The translations under genes and the position numbers were made by a program. A stretch of 20,596 nucleotides of DNA from a virus. How positions within the stretch are numbered: the stretch's first letter is position 1; every line of letters starts with the position of its first letter. Of this stretch, positions 3,878 to 18,576 are shown in pieces. Under the pieces are notes generated by a model. That model saw only the letters and a program-made list of their open reading frames with translations. It was not told where the DNA came from and ran no database searches. The stretch covers positions 1 through 20,596 of the IMG/VR virus record IMGVR_UViG_3300009000_000054; one strand, given 5' to 3'.

Positions 3878-4468
3878 ATGAAACCAAAAGACAGACCACA
3901 TTATGTAAACAACAAAGAGTTTTCTCTAGCTGTTGTTAAGCACTGCGAGAAGGTTCAAGCTGCAAAGAAAAACAATAGAGAGATTCCTATTGTTCCCAAC
4001 TATATCGCAGAGTGCTTTCTCAAGATCGCTGAGGGTCTCTCCCATAAGTCCAACTTCGTTCGCTACACTTATCGTGAAGAGATGGTGATGGACGCTGTAG
4101 AGAACTGCCTCAAAGCCATTGAGAATTATAACATAGAAGCAGCGACTCGTACAGGGACTCCTAATGCGTTTGCTTACTTCACTCAAATTTCTTGGTATGC
4201 TTTTCTTCGTCGCATCAACCGTGAGAAGAAGCAGCAAGACATTCGTTTGAAGTATATTGCAGAAGCTGGCATTGAACAGCACATTGAGACTGGTGATGAA
4301 GATGCTGACTGGAGCAATGTGGTTCCTTTGGTTGAAGTTCTCAAGTATCGTATTGATGTGGTGAAAGAAGCTGACGAACACTTCAAAGAATATGCGAAAG
4401 AAGAACGAAAGCGCCGCCGGCGTACTGTCAAGGCTGATTCTGATCTCTCTGATTTCTTGGTAGACTAA
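3878..4468 (+). CDS. gp55: late sigma factor gp55
   Basis: gp55 is the small phage sigma factor that directs host RNA polymerase to TATAAATA late promoters, with the sliding clamp and gp33 as co-activators. The 196-residue product (T4: 185) has the sigma region 2-like helices seen in the family: YREEMVMDAVENCLKAIENYN (about 66-86) and PNAFAYFTQISWYAFLRRINREKKQQ (about 95-120). These correspond to the polymerase-binding and -10-recognition helices. A basic cluster ERKRRRR lies near the C-terminus. ATG 3878 follows GAGAGTG. It is first in the operon behind a consensus early promoter. It fits with the TATAAATA box found upstream of gp3 in this window. Confidence 0.92.
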   Translation: MKPKDRPHYVNNKEFSLAVVKHCEKVQAAKKNNREIPIVPNYIAECFLKIAEGLSHKSNFVRYTYREEMVMDAVENCLKAIENYNIEAATRTGTPNAFAYFTQISWYAFLRRINREKKQQDIRLKYIAEAGIEQHIETGDEDADWSNVVPLVEVLKYRIDVVKEADEHFKEYAKEERKRRRRTVKADSDLSDFLVD

Positions 4469-5844: not shown

Positions 5845-6131
5845 TGCGTAATCGACATGGTGTAGAATATAGTTTTGTGAAAGTTGGCGATAACCTGTAT
5901 CGCTTTGATATGTCCGAAGAAGGCATGGAGTATATGCGTCTCGGCGGTAAAGACGGTCAAGAGGGCATTGACTATCGTGATCTGGGCATGTTTGATCCGA
6001 GTGGCGGTCCTTATGTCGCAGTTGGAGAGCGAATCTACTGGGACGAGATTCAGGGCGCAACCGAACATCAACCGTTGACGGTGAAGCGGATCTATAAAGA
6101 GGAAAGTTTCTTTGTGGAGGTAGAGCAATGA
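5844..6131 (+). CDS. hypothetical small protein
   Basis: A 95-residue mixed alpha/beta protein with beta-rich ends (GVEYSFVKVGDNLYRFDM and VKRIYKEESFFVEVEQ). I do not recognise it. The upstream stop overlaps its ATG, and downstream its TGA overlaps ATG 6128, which opens a disrupted reading frame. It belongs to the run of tiny accessory genes between gp47 and gp46. Confidence 0.7.
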   Translation: MRNRHGVEYSFVKVGDNLYRFDMSEEGMEYMRLGGKDGQEGIDYRDLGMFDPSGGPYVAVGERIYWDEIQGATEHQPLTVKRIYKEESFFVEVEQ

Positions 6132-10978: not shown

Positions 10979-11055
10979 GCGCCCATAGCTCAATTGGATA
11001 GAGCAACAGCCTTCTAAGCTGTAGGTTCCAGGTTCGAGTCCTGGTGGGTGCGCCA
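10979..11055 (+). tRNA. tRNA-Arg (anticodon UCU)
   Basis: A complete 77-nt cloverleaf with encoded CCA. Acceptor GCGCCCA pairs with TGGGTGC (one G-U), the D stem is GCTC/GAGC, the anticodon stem ACAGC/GCTGT with loop CTTCTAA gives anticodon TCT, and the T stem is CCAGG/CCTGG with loop TTCGAGT. It reads AGA codons, which this phage uses alongside CGT. No separate promoter is visible; it probably rides on the gp45 transcript. Confidence 0.96.
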
Positions 11056-11067
11056 ATTGGAGGTACT

Positions 11068-11271
11068 ATGTACTTGAAGCGTGACAATCGTGGTGCAGAG
11101 ATTCGTAGAACAAACACAGAGTCTTGCGAGATGTATGTGGTTGATCTTTATGAAAATGGTGCTATTGTAGAAGTACGAGAGCTTCCCGGCAAAAGCATCT
11201 ACTATGCCCAAGATACTGCAGAAAACTGGCTCAATGGCATTTTAGAAACTAAGCAGTTTTTAGCAGAGTAA
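11068..11271 (+). CDS. hypothetical small protein
   Basis: A 67-residue protein with a central strand-rich part (EMYVVDLYENGAIVEVREL) and a C-terminal helix (AENWLNGILETKQFLAE). ATG 11068 with GGAGG at 11059-11063 is chosen, as an upstream in-frame start lies inside the tRNA. It overlaps the sulfotransferase start (TAATG 11269-11273), so the two are probably coupled and may share a function. No family is recognised. Confidence 0.75.
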   Translation: MYLKRDNRGAEIRRTNTESCEMYVVDLYENGAIVEVRELPGKSIYYAQDTAENWLNGILETKQFLAE

Positions 11272-12083
11272 TGCAACTAAACATTTGCACAGGATTGCCT
11301 CGATCTGGCAGCACCGTACTGATGAATATCCTACAGCAGAATCCTAGGATCTTCACTTCAGGGACTTGTGTGCTTCCTCGTTTGCTCAAAGACTTGCTAA
11401 CCCGAGTCCGAGTGAAAGAGGAATTCCTGGCAATGAGTCAGAAGTCTTCCGACAAAGCACTCTATGGTTTTATTCGAGGATCTGCTCTTGGGTGGTACTC
11501 TGGACTTACTGACAAACCTGTTGTGTTCTCTAAGAGTCGCTACTGGTCTGAGTTTCTGCATCTGTTTCCTGATGCTAAGATTCTTGTGACTGTTCGTGAC
11601 CTACGAGACATCATTGAGAGCTTTGAGAAACTAGAAGGAAAGACTCTAGCAACGCACACATATACTGATGACAATACTGTTGTGGCATCTATGACCATGC
11701 AGGAGAAGTTTCAGTATTATGTGAATCGAATGAATCCCATGAATGCAACTCTGAGGACTGAGATTCCTCGTTGCATGGATTTATTTGAAAGTGGTCGTGT
11801 TATGTTTTTGCGATATGAAGACTTTACCAAAGAACCAGAGCATATGTTGAAGAAGATATATCGTTTTCTTGGTGAAGAATATTACGAGCACGATTTAAGT
11901 AATATTGAATTAAATGATAATTACGAGCATGATAATGTATATTATGCCGAGAAGATTAGTCATGTAACTGATCGTGAGTTTCAATATTATAAAGAACCAA
12001 ATAGACAATTACCTGATTGGTTTCATGAAGGGGTTGTAAGAGAGAATGAATGGTTCTACAATGCGTTTTATCCGCCGCTATAG
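11271..12083 (+). CDS. sulfotransferase-family protein
   Basis: A 270-residue PAPS-dependent sulfotransferase-like enzyme, which would move a sulfuryl group from 3'-phosphoadenosine-5'-phosphosulfate to an acceptor. The 5'-phosphosulfate loop is TGLPRSGSTVLMNIL (7-21) and the 3'-phosphate-binding motif is VTVRDLRDIIESFEKL (106-121). A C-terminal RYEDFTKEPEHMLKKIYRFL matches the family's 'YEDL...P...l..i..FLG' helix. The protein lacks a signal peptide, so it acts in the cytoplasm. The acceptor is unknown: a phage virion component, host surface glycan or small metabolite are all possible. The gene stop (TAG 12081-12083) lies inside the following tRNA-Thr gene. Confidence 0.88.
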   Translation: MQLNICTGLPRSGSTVLMNILQQNPRIFTSGTCVLPRLLKDLLTRVRVKEEFLAMSQKSSDKALYGFIRGSALGWYSGLTDKPVVFSKSRYWSEFLHLFPDAKILVTVRDLRDIIESFEKLEGKTLATHTYTDDNTVVASMTMQEKFQYYVNRMNPMNATLRTEIPRCMDLFESGRVMFLRYEDFTKEPEHMLKKIYRFLGEEYYEHDLSNIELNDNYEHDNVYYAEKISHVTDREFQYYKEPNRQLPDWFHEGVVRENEWFYNAFYPPL

Positions 12084-12149
12084 CTCAGCAGGTAGAGCAT
12101 CTGATTTGTAATCAGAGGGTCCCGGGTTCGATTCCTGGTGGCGGCACCA
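12074..12149 (+). tRNA. tRNA-Thr (anticodon UGU)
   Basis: A 76-nt cloverleaf with encoded CCA. Acceptor GCCGCTA pairs with TGGCGGC (one U-G), the D stem is GCTC/GAGC, the anticodon stem TCTGA/TCAGA with loop TTTGTAA gives anticodon TGT, and the T stem is CCGGG/CCTGG with loop TTCGATT. Its first ten bases are the last codons and stop of the sulfotransferase gene. It reads ACA. Confidence 0.96.
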
Positions 12150-17186: not shown

Positions 17187-17716
17187 TGCTGAATATTTTT
17201 AAAGGAAAAGACGATTACATTGCTGATCGTCGACCTTTTTTTGGTAAACTACCTTTTCCTATTAGCGATCAATATAATTGGGATAGCCATATTTATTTAA
17301 TGGATTCTCATCCAGAAGACGCTACTAGAGAAAAGAACGATAAGATGAAAGTCGAGCTTAATTCTTTTCATAGCAGACCGTCTGCACCTCAGTTTGCCAA
17401 AGATATTGAGCAAGAGATGCAAGACACTTTTTCTTTGCACGGAAATAAAATCACGAACATTGCTTTTGCTGGGTTTGGTAGAGAGAGCGGAAGTTACCCA
17501 TGGCATAAAGACAGCATGGATGTTTTTCTTGTCCAGGTTCTGGGTCAGATTCGTTTTAGGCTAGAGGGCTTCAATAACGATGAGCCTATCTGGTTCAACC
17601 CCGGTGACTATGTGTGGATTCCTAGACAGACGCATCATCAGATTCTTCCTCACCATTCAAGAGTTACATTCTCATTTGGTGTCGAAGGCGATCCTGACCC
17701 GTCTATCTACTTCTAA
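17186..17716 (+). CDS. cupin/JmjC-like protein
   Basis: A 176-residue protein with a double-stranded beta-helix core: SGSYPWHKDSMDVFLVQVLG, FRLEGFNNDEPIWFNPGDYV and WIPRQTHHQILPHH. A HxD pair (H107, D109) and a distal H150/H151 could bind Fe(II), as in JmjC-type hydroxylases acting on ribosomal proteins (ROXY-like) or cupins. The 'NPGDYVWIP...HH' turn is typical of this group. ATG 17186 overlaps the regA stop (TGATG); a GTG at 17183 is an alternative. Substrate is unknown. The stop overlaps that of the convergent gene. Confidence 0.75.
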   Translation: MLNIFKGKDDYIADRRPFFGKLPFPISDQYNWDSHIYLMDSHPEDATREKNDKMKVELNSFHSRPSAPQFAKDIEQEMQDTFSLHGNKITNIAFAGFGRESGSYPWHKDSMDVFLVQVLGQIRFRLEGFNNDEPIWFNPGDYVWIPRQTHHQILPHHSRVTFSFGVEGDPDPSIYF

Positions 17717-18036
17717 GCAGGTCTTGAAACGATAACAATATCACCTTCAACCCCGGTGATTGTAAGAGACGTTCCATCTAGAGGACCAAAAACTTTACCT
17801 GAAGTTAAAGATTGACCAGAGAATCCTCCTCCAGAAACAGAGCCTCCGGAGCCTGAAATATAACTGCCGACAGCCGCAGAATCATAAGTGTATTCGCCAC
17901 CAGCGTCACCAAATTCAGAGAAAAGAACTGAGATAAAACCTGTAGATGCCCATTTCATTTTATCTGATGCTGAATCGTATATCAGTGCGTCGCCATCAGA
18001 AGGTGTGCTAGTTGTATCATATGTAATTGTAGCCAT
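17713..18036 (-). CDS. Gly/Ser-rich fibre-like virion protein (reverse strand)
   Basis: A 107-residue protein, the only reverse-strand gene in the window. The N-terminus (TITYDTTSTPSDGDALIYDS ASDKMKW) resembles the 'DG..L.YDS.S.KW' repeats of phage tail-fibre/appendage proteins. The middle is Gly/Ser-rich (SGSGGSVSGGGFSGQS) and the end is beta-rich (LTITGVEGDIVIVSRP). ATG at 18036 (reading left) with AGGA 18050-18047 upstream is preferred over TTG 18042. Its stop overlaps that of the convergent cupin-like gene by four bases. A virion role is inferred from composition only. Confidence 0.7.
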   Translation of the reverse strand: MATITYDTTSTPSDGDALIYDSASDKMKWASTGFISVLFSEFGDAGGEYTYDSAAVGSYISGSGGSVSGGGFSGQSLTSGKVFGPLDGTSLTITGVEGDIVIVSRPA

Positions 18037-18064
18037 TGACAAAAGATCCTAAAAAGTGTATAAT
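18036..18064 (+). promoter_or_regulatory. sigma-70-type promoter for hsp20
   Basis: TTGACA 18036-18041 and TATAAT 18059-18064 are perfect consensus with a 17-bp spacer. The -35 box overlaps the start codon region of the divergent reverse-strand gene. The predicted start is near 18071, the first base of a 20-bp palindrome. Confidence 0.9.
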
Positions 18065-18070
18065 ACCCTC

Positions 18071-18090
18071 GTTTATTTAGCTAAATAAAC
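18071..18090. repeat. 20-bp perfect palindrome at the hsp20 transcription start
   Basis: GTTTATTTAGCTAAATAAAC is a perfect palindrome located 7 bp after the -10 box, between two divergent genes. In RNA it makes an 8-bp stem with an AGCU loop at the very 5' end of the hsp20 mRNA. As DNA it could be an operator. Each strand reads CTAAATA, a near match to the late-promoter TATAAATA. Confidence 0.85.
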
Positions 18091-18091
18091 A

Positions 18092-18113
18092 TGGACGCAG
18101 CCTAGCTGGTCCA
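18092..18113 (+). repeat. second hairpin of hsp20 leader
   Basis: TGGAC-g-CAG (18092-18100) pairs with CTG-GTCCA (18106-18113) as an 8-bp stem with one bulged G97 and a CCTAG loop. CTTTTAA follows, so weak termination is conceivable, but its place between two other leader stem-loops suggests a structural role. Confidence 0.6.
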
Positions 18114-18119
18114 CTTTTA

Positions 18120-18147
18120 ATCTTGCTTAACTTAAGGAGATACAATC
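18120..18147 (+). promoter_or_regulatory. ROSE-like RNA thermometer candidate covering the hsp20 Shine-Dalgarno
   Basis: In the RNA, AUCUUGCUUA (18120-18129) can pair with UAAGGAGAU (18133-18141), closing on a 3-nt loop ACU. The pairs are A120-U141, U121-A140, C122-G139, U123-A138, U124-G137, C126-G136, U127-A135, U128-A134 and A129-U133, with G125 bulged. This hides the whole AAGGAG ribosome site (18134-18139). The UUGCU strand with a bulged G opposite AGGA is the hallmark of ROSE thermometers, which control small heat-shock genes. ATG follows at 18148. The pairing was made by hand; activity is inferred. Confidence 0.6.
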
Positions 18148-18576
18148 ATGACTAACCATGATCTTTTGCCCTTTGCTGGGGCACTTCCCCGCCTCGTTGG
18201 TTTTGAGAACCTGCTTCGTGATATGGAACTACTTAGCAAACCCTCTAACCAACAAAACTACCCTCCGCACAATCTAGTCAAGTACGACGAGTACACCTAT
18301 CAACTAGAGTTTGCACTGGCGGGTTTTGAGAAAGACGAGTTGAAGGTTGAGCATCACGGCACTGACCTCCACATTTCTGGTGAGCAGTCCCCTCGTGATG
18401 ACGAACCCTGTGAGTTTCTTCACAAGGGCATTTCTACTAAGAAGTTCCGTAAGTCCTTCAAAGTCAATGAGCATGTGACTGTCGTTAGTTCGTCCTATAC
18501 GAACGGCATCCTATATGTACTACTGAAGGTTGAACTTCCTGAAGAGAAGAAACCTAAGATCGTCCCGATTCAGTAA
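18148..18576 (+). CDS. hsp20: small heat-shock protein Hsp20
   Basis: A 142-residue ATP-independent holdase chaperone of the alpha-crystallin/IbpA family, probably protecting phage or host proteins during infection. The core domain (about 42-130) shows YDEYTYQLEFALAGFEKDEL (family 'Y.i...laGf.ke.i'), VEHHGTDLHISGEQ, EFLHKGISTKKFRKSFKVNE (matching IbpA 'YLHrGIa.R.FerkF.LAd') and SYTNGILYVLLKVELPEE (matching the 'NGLL.I.l.reiPE' strand). It ends with a C-terminal PKIVPIQ (I-x-I-like tail motif). It has its own promoter and structured leader and a terminator behind it. Hsp20 genes are frequent in cyanophage-type T4 relatives. Confidence 0.95.
   Translation: MTNHDLLPFAGALPRLVGFENLLRDMELLSKPSNQQNYPPHNLVKYDEYTYQLEFALAGFEKDELKVEHHGTDLHISGEQSPRDDEPCEFLHKGISTKKFRKSFKVNEHVTVVSSSYTNGILYVLLKVELPEEKKPKIVPIQ

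Follow-up and report, generated by a model that had tools for sequence, protein, structure and literature searches.

How is the small heat-shock gene of a lytic T4-like phage controlled, and does its leader hold an RNA thermometer? We addressed this question in a stretch of 20,596 nucleotides, hereafter the window. The window is a 20.6-kb T4-like phage record, in which profile searches identified UvsW, gp46/47, gp45, gp44, gp62, and RegA. A sequence-only reading of this DNA had described the hsp20 leader as ROSE-like, with three stem-loops ahead of the gene and a ribosome binding site closed by the last of them. The features that bear on this description are collected in Table 1. Elsewhere in the window, a sulfotransferase gene (11271–12083) was found in the replication gene cluster, between tRNA-Arg(TCT) (10979–11055) and tRNA-Thr(TGT) (12074–12149).

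Table 1. Features of the window related to the hsp20 leader and its transcription (SD, Shine-Dalgarno; MFE, minimum free energy)
Feature	Position	Strand	Basis or detail
Late sigma factor, T4 gp55 type	3878–4468	+	PHROG 234 late sigma transcription factor, E 5e-49; would read TATAAATA promoters
Sigma70-type promoter, perfect consensus TTGACA(18036)-N17-TATAAT(18059)	18036–18064	+	Exact pattern
AT-rich palindrome (first stem-loop of the sequence-only reading)	18071–18090	+	Holds GCTAAATA (18080–18087)
Hairpin I	18092–18113	+	MFE fold; outer stem 18092–18096/18109–18113, inner stem 18098–18101/18105–18108
Hairpin II, ROSE-type	18120–18141	+	Anti-SD AUCUUGCUUA (18120–18129), loop 18130–18132, partner UAAGGAGAU (18133–18141)
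Shine-Dalgarno AAGGAG, sequestered within hairpin II	18134–18139	+	
hsp20, small heat-shock protein of 142 aa	18148–18576	+	Pfam HSP20 PF00011, E 7e-16; PHROG 432 Hsp20, E 6e-30

Fold of the hsp20 leader and covariance models

The sigma70-type promoter predicts a transcript start at about 18071, the same position as proposed earlier. Perfect TTGACA-N17/18-TATAAT sites occur six times in the 20.6-kb window (3786, 3820, 5574, 7924, 10021, and 18036), against 0.02 expected. A divergent ORF without family matches (17713–18042, minus strand) overlaps the –35 box of the hsp20 promoter with its start.

The MFE fold of the leader contained all three of the proposed stem-loops, but only the last two turned out to be conserved (see below). 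In hairpin I, a single bulged base, G18097, separates the outer and inner stems. In hairpin II, A18120–U18124 pair with G18137–U18141 and C18126–A18129 with U18133–G18136, leaving G18125 bulged. The fold therefore bears out the pairing of AAGGAG with the AUCUUGCUUA strand around one bulged G. The AUG of hsp20 lies outside hairpin II and is unpaired. Two hallmarks of ROSE elements were found in the window: a 3′ hairpin in which the pairing between a U(U/C)GCU strand and the SD is imperfect (AUCUUGCUUA/UAAGGAGAU), and a place in the leader of a small heat-shock gene, with two to four hairpins and a length of about 60 to more than 100 nt. Of 200 dinucleotide shuffles, 2 reached an MFE as good as that of 18071–18150 (z = –3.1), and 6 of 200 did so for hairpins I and II alone (z = –2.4). 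This support from shuffling is only moderate; the comparative evidence is the strong part.

Within 18000–18250, the best Rfam match was ROSE_3 (RF02523) at 18089–18153 (E = 0.0015). The ROSE family was thus recovered as the best match, but with 25.9 bits the leader misses the gathering score of 43 bits. At the gathering threshold, Rfam returned two tRNAs only for the window, and the leader was not among the matches of rhizobial ROSE (RF00435) or ROSE_2 (RF01832) up to E = 10. The hsp20 leader of a related phage (L605:6017-6083) passes the ROSE_3 gathering score, with 44.4 against 43 bits.

A covariance model built from four cyanophage leaders only (R1) found 26 leaders at E < 0.025 in 237 kb, the window leader included. 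Its match at 18092–18141 (18.7 bits, E = 0.014 over 237 kb) was the top match of the window. We then used the 26 leaders to build a second model, R2. When whole phage genomes were searched with R2, the hsp20 leader was the single clear match in 13 of 14 (E = 4e-4 to 9e-13), and the next-best match in those 13 genomes had an E value of 0.32. Melnitz, HTVC008M, Mosig, C48C1, HTVC115P, S-IOM18, and AG-345-P14 were outside the R2 training set. The ROSE-like character of the leader is upheld by the ROSE_3 match, by the independent R1 match, and by anti-SD pairing that is conserved in relatives.

Conservation of two hairpins among phage relatives

Of 152 distinct phage hsp20 leaders, 138 have the anti-SD strand Y(U/C)GC(U/G) just 5′ of the SD, one of the 138 being a bacterial contaminant (L076). 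For other genes from the same loci, the strand was present in 4 leaders out of 196. The contaminant is the record of the Campylobacter "phage" A11a (MG065691.1, unverified); it scored 100 bits with ROSE_2, but its ibpA region is apparently E. coli DNA. It was therefore removed before the phage Hsp20 proteins were clustered at 75% identity, which yielded 47 lineages. The U(U/C)GC strand is kept in 40 of these, and the exact motif is absent in 7, some of which read UCGUCU or CUGUCU instead. In the phage hsp20 leaders L022, L029, L039, and L174, these motifs replace U(U/C)GCU, and the thermometer there may be a variant or decayed one.

Isolate cyanophages with the anti-SD strand include S-SZBM1, S-CAM7, S-CRM01, P-RSM4, and S-RIM44. 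The strand was also found in the pelagiphages HTVC008M, Mosig, and HTVC103P, in the Methylophilales phage Melnitz, and in the Pseudomonas jumbo phage PA5oct. An IMG/VR scan with the PA5oct Hsp20 as query found nothing. Because Synechococcus and Prochlorococcus cyanophages have the element, the earlier suggestion that the host is probably proteobacterial does not follow.

Hairpin I has a common plan in 45 of 47 lineages, namely a variable stem, a single bulged base on the 5′ side, and a short inner stem. Although any base was allowed at the bulge, 44 of 46 lineages had a G there; the share in shuffles was 21%. All four Watson–Crick pair types occur in the outer stem, with the pairing kept. For a 26-row alignment of the leaders, 98.2% of the cells were paired, and sliding the partners lowered the pairing to 47–61%. 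The alignment held 39 double-change cells, against 7.9 in shuffled versions, and 9 of the 13 pairs had double changes; none of 500 shuffles scored as high. The hairpin I counts matter here because they were unfitted, whereas the 26-row alignment was fitted to the structure. Pairing is thus conserved by covariation among the relatives, as is expected of a ROSE element. This includes the UUGCU/AGGA pairing, whose conservation in related phages had been put forward as a check on the ROSE assignment.

The first stem-loop was kept only in the nearest relatives (L001–L004), and it was absent in L005 and in L006–L016. Where the window has GCTAAATA, the stem-loop of L003 and L004 contains the T4-type late promoter TATAAATA; in L006–L016, the promoter is present without the hairpin. 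The conserved element is two hairpins, not three, and the palindrome is probably not part of the thermometer. Early transcripts from the sigma70 promoter of the window would include the palindrome as well. A NNTAAATA box whose end lies –1 to +5 nt before hairpin I was found in 18 of 45 lineages (background, 1.9% of slots), and several other lineages have TATAAT 4–7 nt 5′ of hairpin I. Since these boxes adjoin hairpin I, the transcript would usually start at or near it, with a leader of about 55–60 nt.

The late promoters raise the possibility of a control by infection stage. In T4 gene e, the ribosome binding site is hidden in long early transcripts and exposed in late transcripts, which start inside the structure. 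The hsp20 leader could work in the same way, given that T4-type late promoters lie directly 5′ in many relatives and that the window phage has a gene for a gp55-type sigma factor. However, with the late promoters located 5′ of hairpin I, both hairpins are still part of the late transcripts. The same two hairpins also occur on the chromosomes of marine alphaproteobacteria, where there are no phage late promoters. We consider stage control of this type extremely unlikely.

Cellular relatives and further genes with the element

The nearest cellular Hsp20s found were mostly alphaproteobacterial, Pelagibacteraceae included. Marine alphaproteobacterial hsp20 leaders carry the same two hairpins, with R2 scores of up to 52.5 bits, and the hsp20 leader was the best R2 match in five marine alphaproteobacterial genomes. 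Leaders such as L321, L305, and L320 closely resemble those of the phages in both hairpins, with GUAGAC-G-CC...GGGUCUAC followed by AUCUUGCUUAAUAAAGGAGAU as an example; unlike the phage leaders, they are chromosomal, and they are unannotated. Among 20 bacterial loci, Rfam gave ROSE-family matches at E ≤ 0.1 in three, and no ROSE match at E ≤ 0.1 in the marine alphaproteobacterial loci L305, L320, L334, and L279.

Strongly supported branches of the Hsp20 tree intermix phage with Pelagibacteraceae sequences, which indicates that the exchange has been repeated. The phage Hsp20s did not resolve to a single origin: the well-supported branches force at least five label changes, in a tree where some "bacterial" contigs look like phage contigs (e.g., L297). 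The clade of the window's Hsp20 sits on a long branch, and its placement is unsure. An earlier study put the Hsp20s of cyanophages close to bacterial class A (PMC3827213), and class A small heat-shock genes carry ROSE in Mesorhizobium loti (PMC3989490). Most likely, the leader is a ROSE-type thermometer that was acquired together with the hsp20 gene.

We carried out two protein-blind scans of IMG/VR, in which the pattern consisted of the hairpin II strand and the SD, and sites were required to have a start codon and an open frame; the resulting counts are samples. The scans yielded at least 234 leaders, which belonged to at least 205 hsp20, at least 12 dnaK, and at least 17 other genes (Hsp20 or DnaK in 217 of 234 among the matches listed). 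Hairpin I with the bulged G, which the pattern did not demand, was present in 183 of 205 hsp20, 9 of 12 dnaK, and 11 of 17 other leaders among the matches listed. About nine of the 17 other matches listed encode phasin-like proteins of 63–97 residues, whose best Pfam match, Phasin_2, had an E value of 0.013, below the cut-off. The element precedes phasin-like genes at L386:10492-10538, L421:3593-3636, L444:2968-3013, L512:973-1017, L531:6261-6314, L553:10460-10506, and L592:793-842. One more of the 17, in another viral contig, precedes an AhpC/TSA peroxiredoxin gene (L478:2477-2523).

Eight contigs have dnaK followed by hsp20, and every hsp20 has its own R2-scored element, with E ≤ 2e-5 in seven and 4e-4 in L391. 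Two viral contigs (25,986 and 57,368 bases) carry the element before each of dnaK, groES, and hsp20. The contigs with ROSE-type leaders on dnaK or groES besides hsp20, up to three per contig, include L605 (G016; leaders at 2115–2153, 4033–4077, and 6020–6070), L606 (G015), L384, L387, L391, L415, L426, L427, L438, and L588. A 278-kb contig with the element on dnaK and hsp20 is a phage, since it encodes a T4-type major capsid protein (E = 6e-99), portal (6e-114), and terminase (1e-18). In the remaining dnaK contigs, which IMG/VR classes as viral, these T4-type hallmarks were not found; their neighboring genes match PHROG families. We regard it as rather probable that phages run their own RNA-only heat-shock regulon, with separate ROSE-type leaders on hsp20, dnaK, groES, and some phasin-like genes.

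Proposed temperature control and comparison with known systems

With these results in hand, we consider it highly probable that the leader of hsp20 forms a compact ROSE-type element of two hairpins through which warming raises the Hsp20 output, and that the gene and its leader came from marine alphaproteobacteria. The temperature control of the window gene is proposed on ROSE precedent. At low temperature, hairpin II would block the 30S subunit. Warming would open it gradually, and the output of phage Hsp20 would rise with temperature. Hairpin I would stay folded and act as a scaffold or a protein-binding site. The gene and leader would have entered the phages jointly from a marine alphaproteobacterial class A hsp20, and exchange would have recurred. 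The element may also serve dnaK and groES in some phages, resulting in a small chaperone regulon. The rarity of sharp heat shock in the seas that many of these phages inhabit counts against a thermometer.

The nearest-neighbor model, which also fails on the E. coli ibpA ROSE, predicts that the unpaired share of the SD of the window climbs from 4% (25 °C) through 11% (42 °C) to 21% (50 °C). Nor do these energies set thermometer leaders apart from others: from 20 to 45 °C, their SD opening grew by 0.10, only slightly more than the 0.06 of controls (p = 0.07), in a model that keeps the E. coli ibpA ROSE closed too. Because the known E. coli leader is not predicted to open, these energies do not decide the question. 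An SD predicted to be mostly closed up to 50 °C would also suit a constitutive translation attenuator or an mRNA-stabilizing 5′ hairpin that senses nothing, and 5′ hairpins often stabilize mRNA. Against this explanation, the element is restricted to heat-shock genes of three unrelated families, and the conserved pairing is imperfect and bulged, with no perfect stem. We find it very unlikely.

Alternatively, the leader could be chiefly a binding site for Hsp20. Free Hsp20 would repress its own mRNA, aggregates would titrate Hsp20, and the signal would be aggregation. The IbpAs of E. coli and other gamma-proteobacteria repress their own translation via the ROSE-bearing 5′ UTR; this depends on Arg93 together with an aromatic residue 34, and R93K abolishes the repression in E. 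coli (PMC10474464). An Arg matching IbpA Arg93 was found in 40 of the 47 phage Hsp20 lineages. Hairpin I, which is temperature-insensitive in Pseudomonas (PMC3669281), is yet very well conserved in the phages, including its bulged G. The Hsp20 of the window keeps a Tyr matching IbpA Y34 (YPPHN) but has Lys at the Arg93 site (GISTKKFRKSF), and therefore lacks the full combination of Arg93 and aromatic residue. All four Lys lineages retain both hairpins, and the element on dnaK and groES would be unexplained unless Hsp20 represses those genes too. As the chief role of the leader, autorepression seems unlikely to us. It could act alongside the thermometer, with aggregates formed, e.g., by unassembled virion proteins.

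The thermometer reading would provide a role and a control mechanism for phage hsp20, a gene that is common in T4-like marine phages and has no settled function. Should the leaders prove heat-responsive, thermosensors of a proteobacterial type are widespread in marine and freshwater phages, cyanophages included, and phage chaperone output, perhaps even burst size, would be tied directly to water temperature. Cyanophages with the element on hsp20 would then carry such a sensor into cyanobacteria. If the regulon is true, the virus could raise several chaperones jointly in a warmed or aggregation-stressed host, with no need for a host heat-shock sigma factor. It can also be tested whether a virus connects several genes through copies of a single RNA sensor. 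To our knowledge, ROSE control of the major chaperone machines (dnaK, groES) would be the first of its kind. Phage dnaK and hsp20 were reported earlier with no regulation described (PMC12619734). Our search of the open-access literature (subscription papers and preprints lay outside it) found no paper that connects RNA thermometers with hsp20, dnaK, or groES of phages or cyanophages, and the sequence-only reading had likewise been aware of no ROSE element described in a T4-like phage.

Among known systems, a temperature-labile structure at a phage ribosome site is shared with lambda cIII and with the fourU RNA thermometer in the SPbeta blyA leader (PMC10586365). Both differ from the window leader in fold and gene, and have no U(U/C)GCU strand and no heat-shock gene. 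The rhizobial ROSE (RF00435) and the enterobacterial ibpA ROSE_2 (RF01832) have the anti-SD motif with a bulged G in the last hairpin and belong to class A small heat-shock genes, like the window leader, but they contain three or four hairpins. The short ROSE-like thermometers of Pseudomonas ibpA were experimentally tested and have leaders of 61–62 nt (Krajewski 2013, PMC3669281). They share with the window two hairpins, a leader of about 60 nt, a free AUG, a small heat-shock gene on the 3′ side, and U(U/C)GCU placed against AGGA with an unpaired G. The Rfam ROSE_3 consensus also has the bulged G in hairpin I (GAU-G-CCG...CGGGUC), as do the phage leaders. Unlike Pseudomonas ibpA and ROSE_3, the window leader is AT-rich, belongs to a lytic T4-like phage, and stays under the 43-bit cut-off; its phage relatives are driven by a T4-type late promoter, and some phages have the element on dnaK and groES as well. 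The phage leader belongs to the ROSE kind, and a chaperone regulon built from ROSE-type leaders would be a new use of it.
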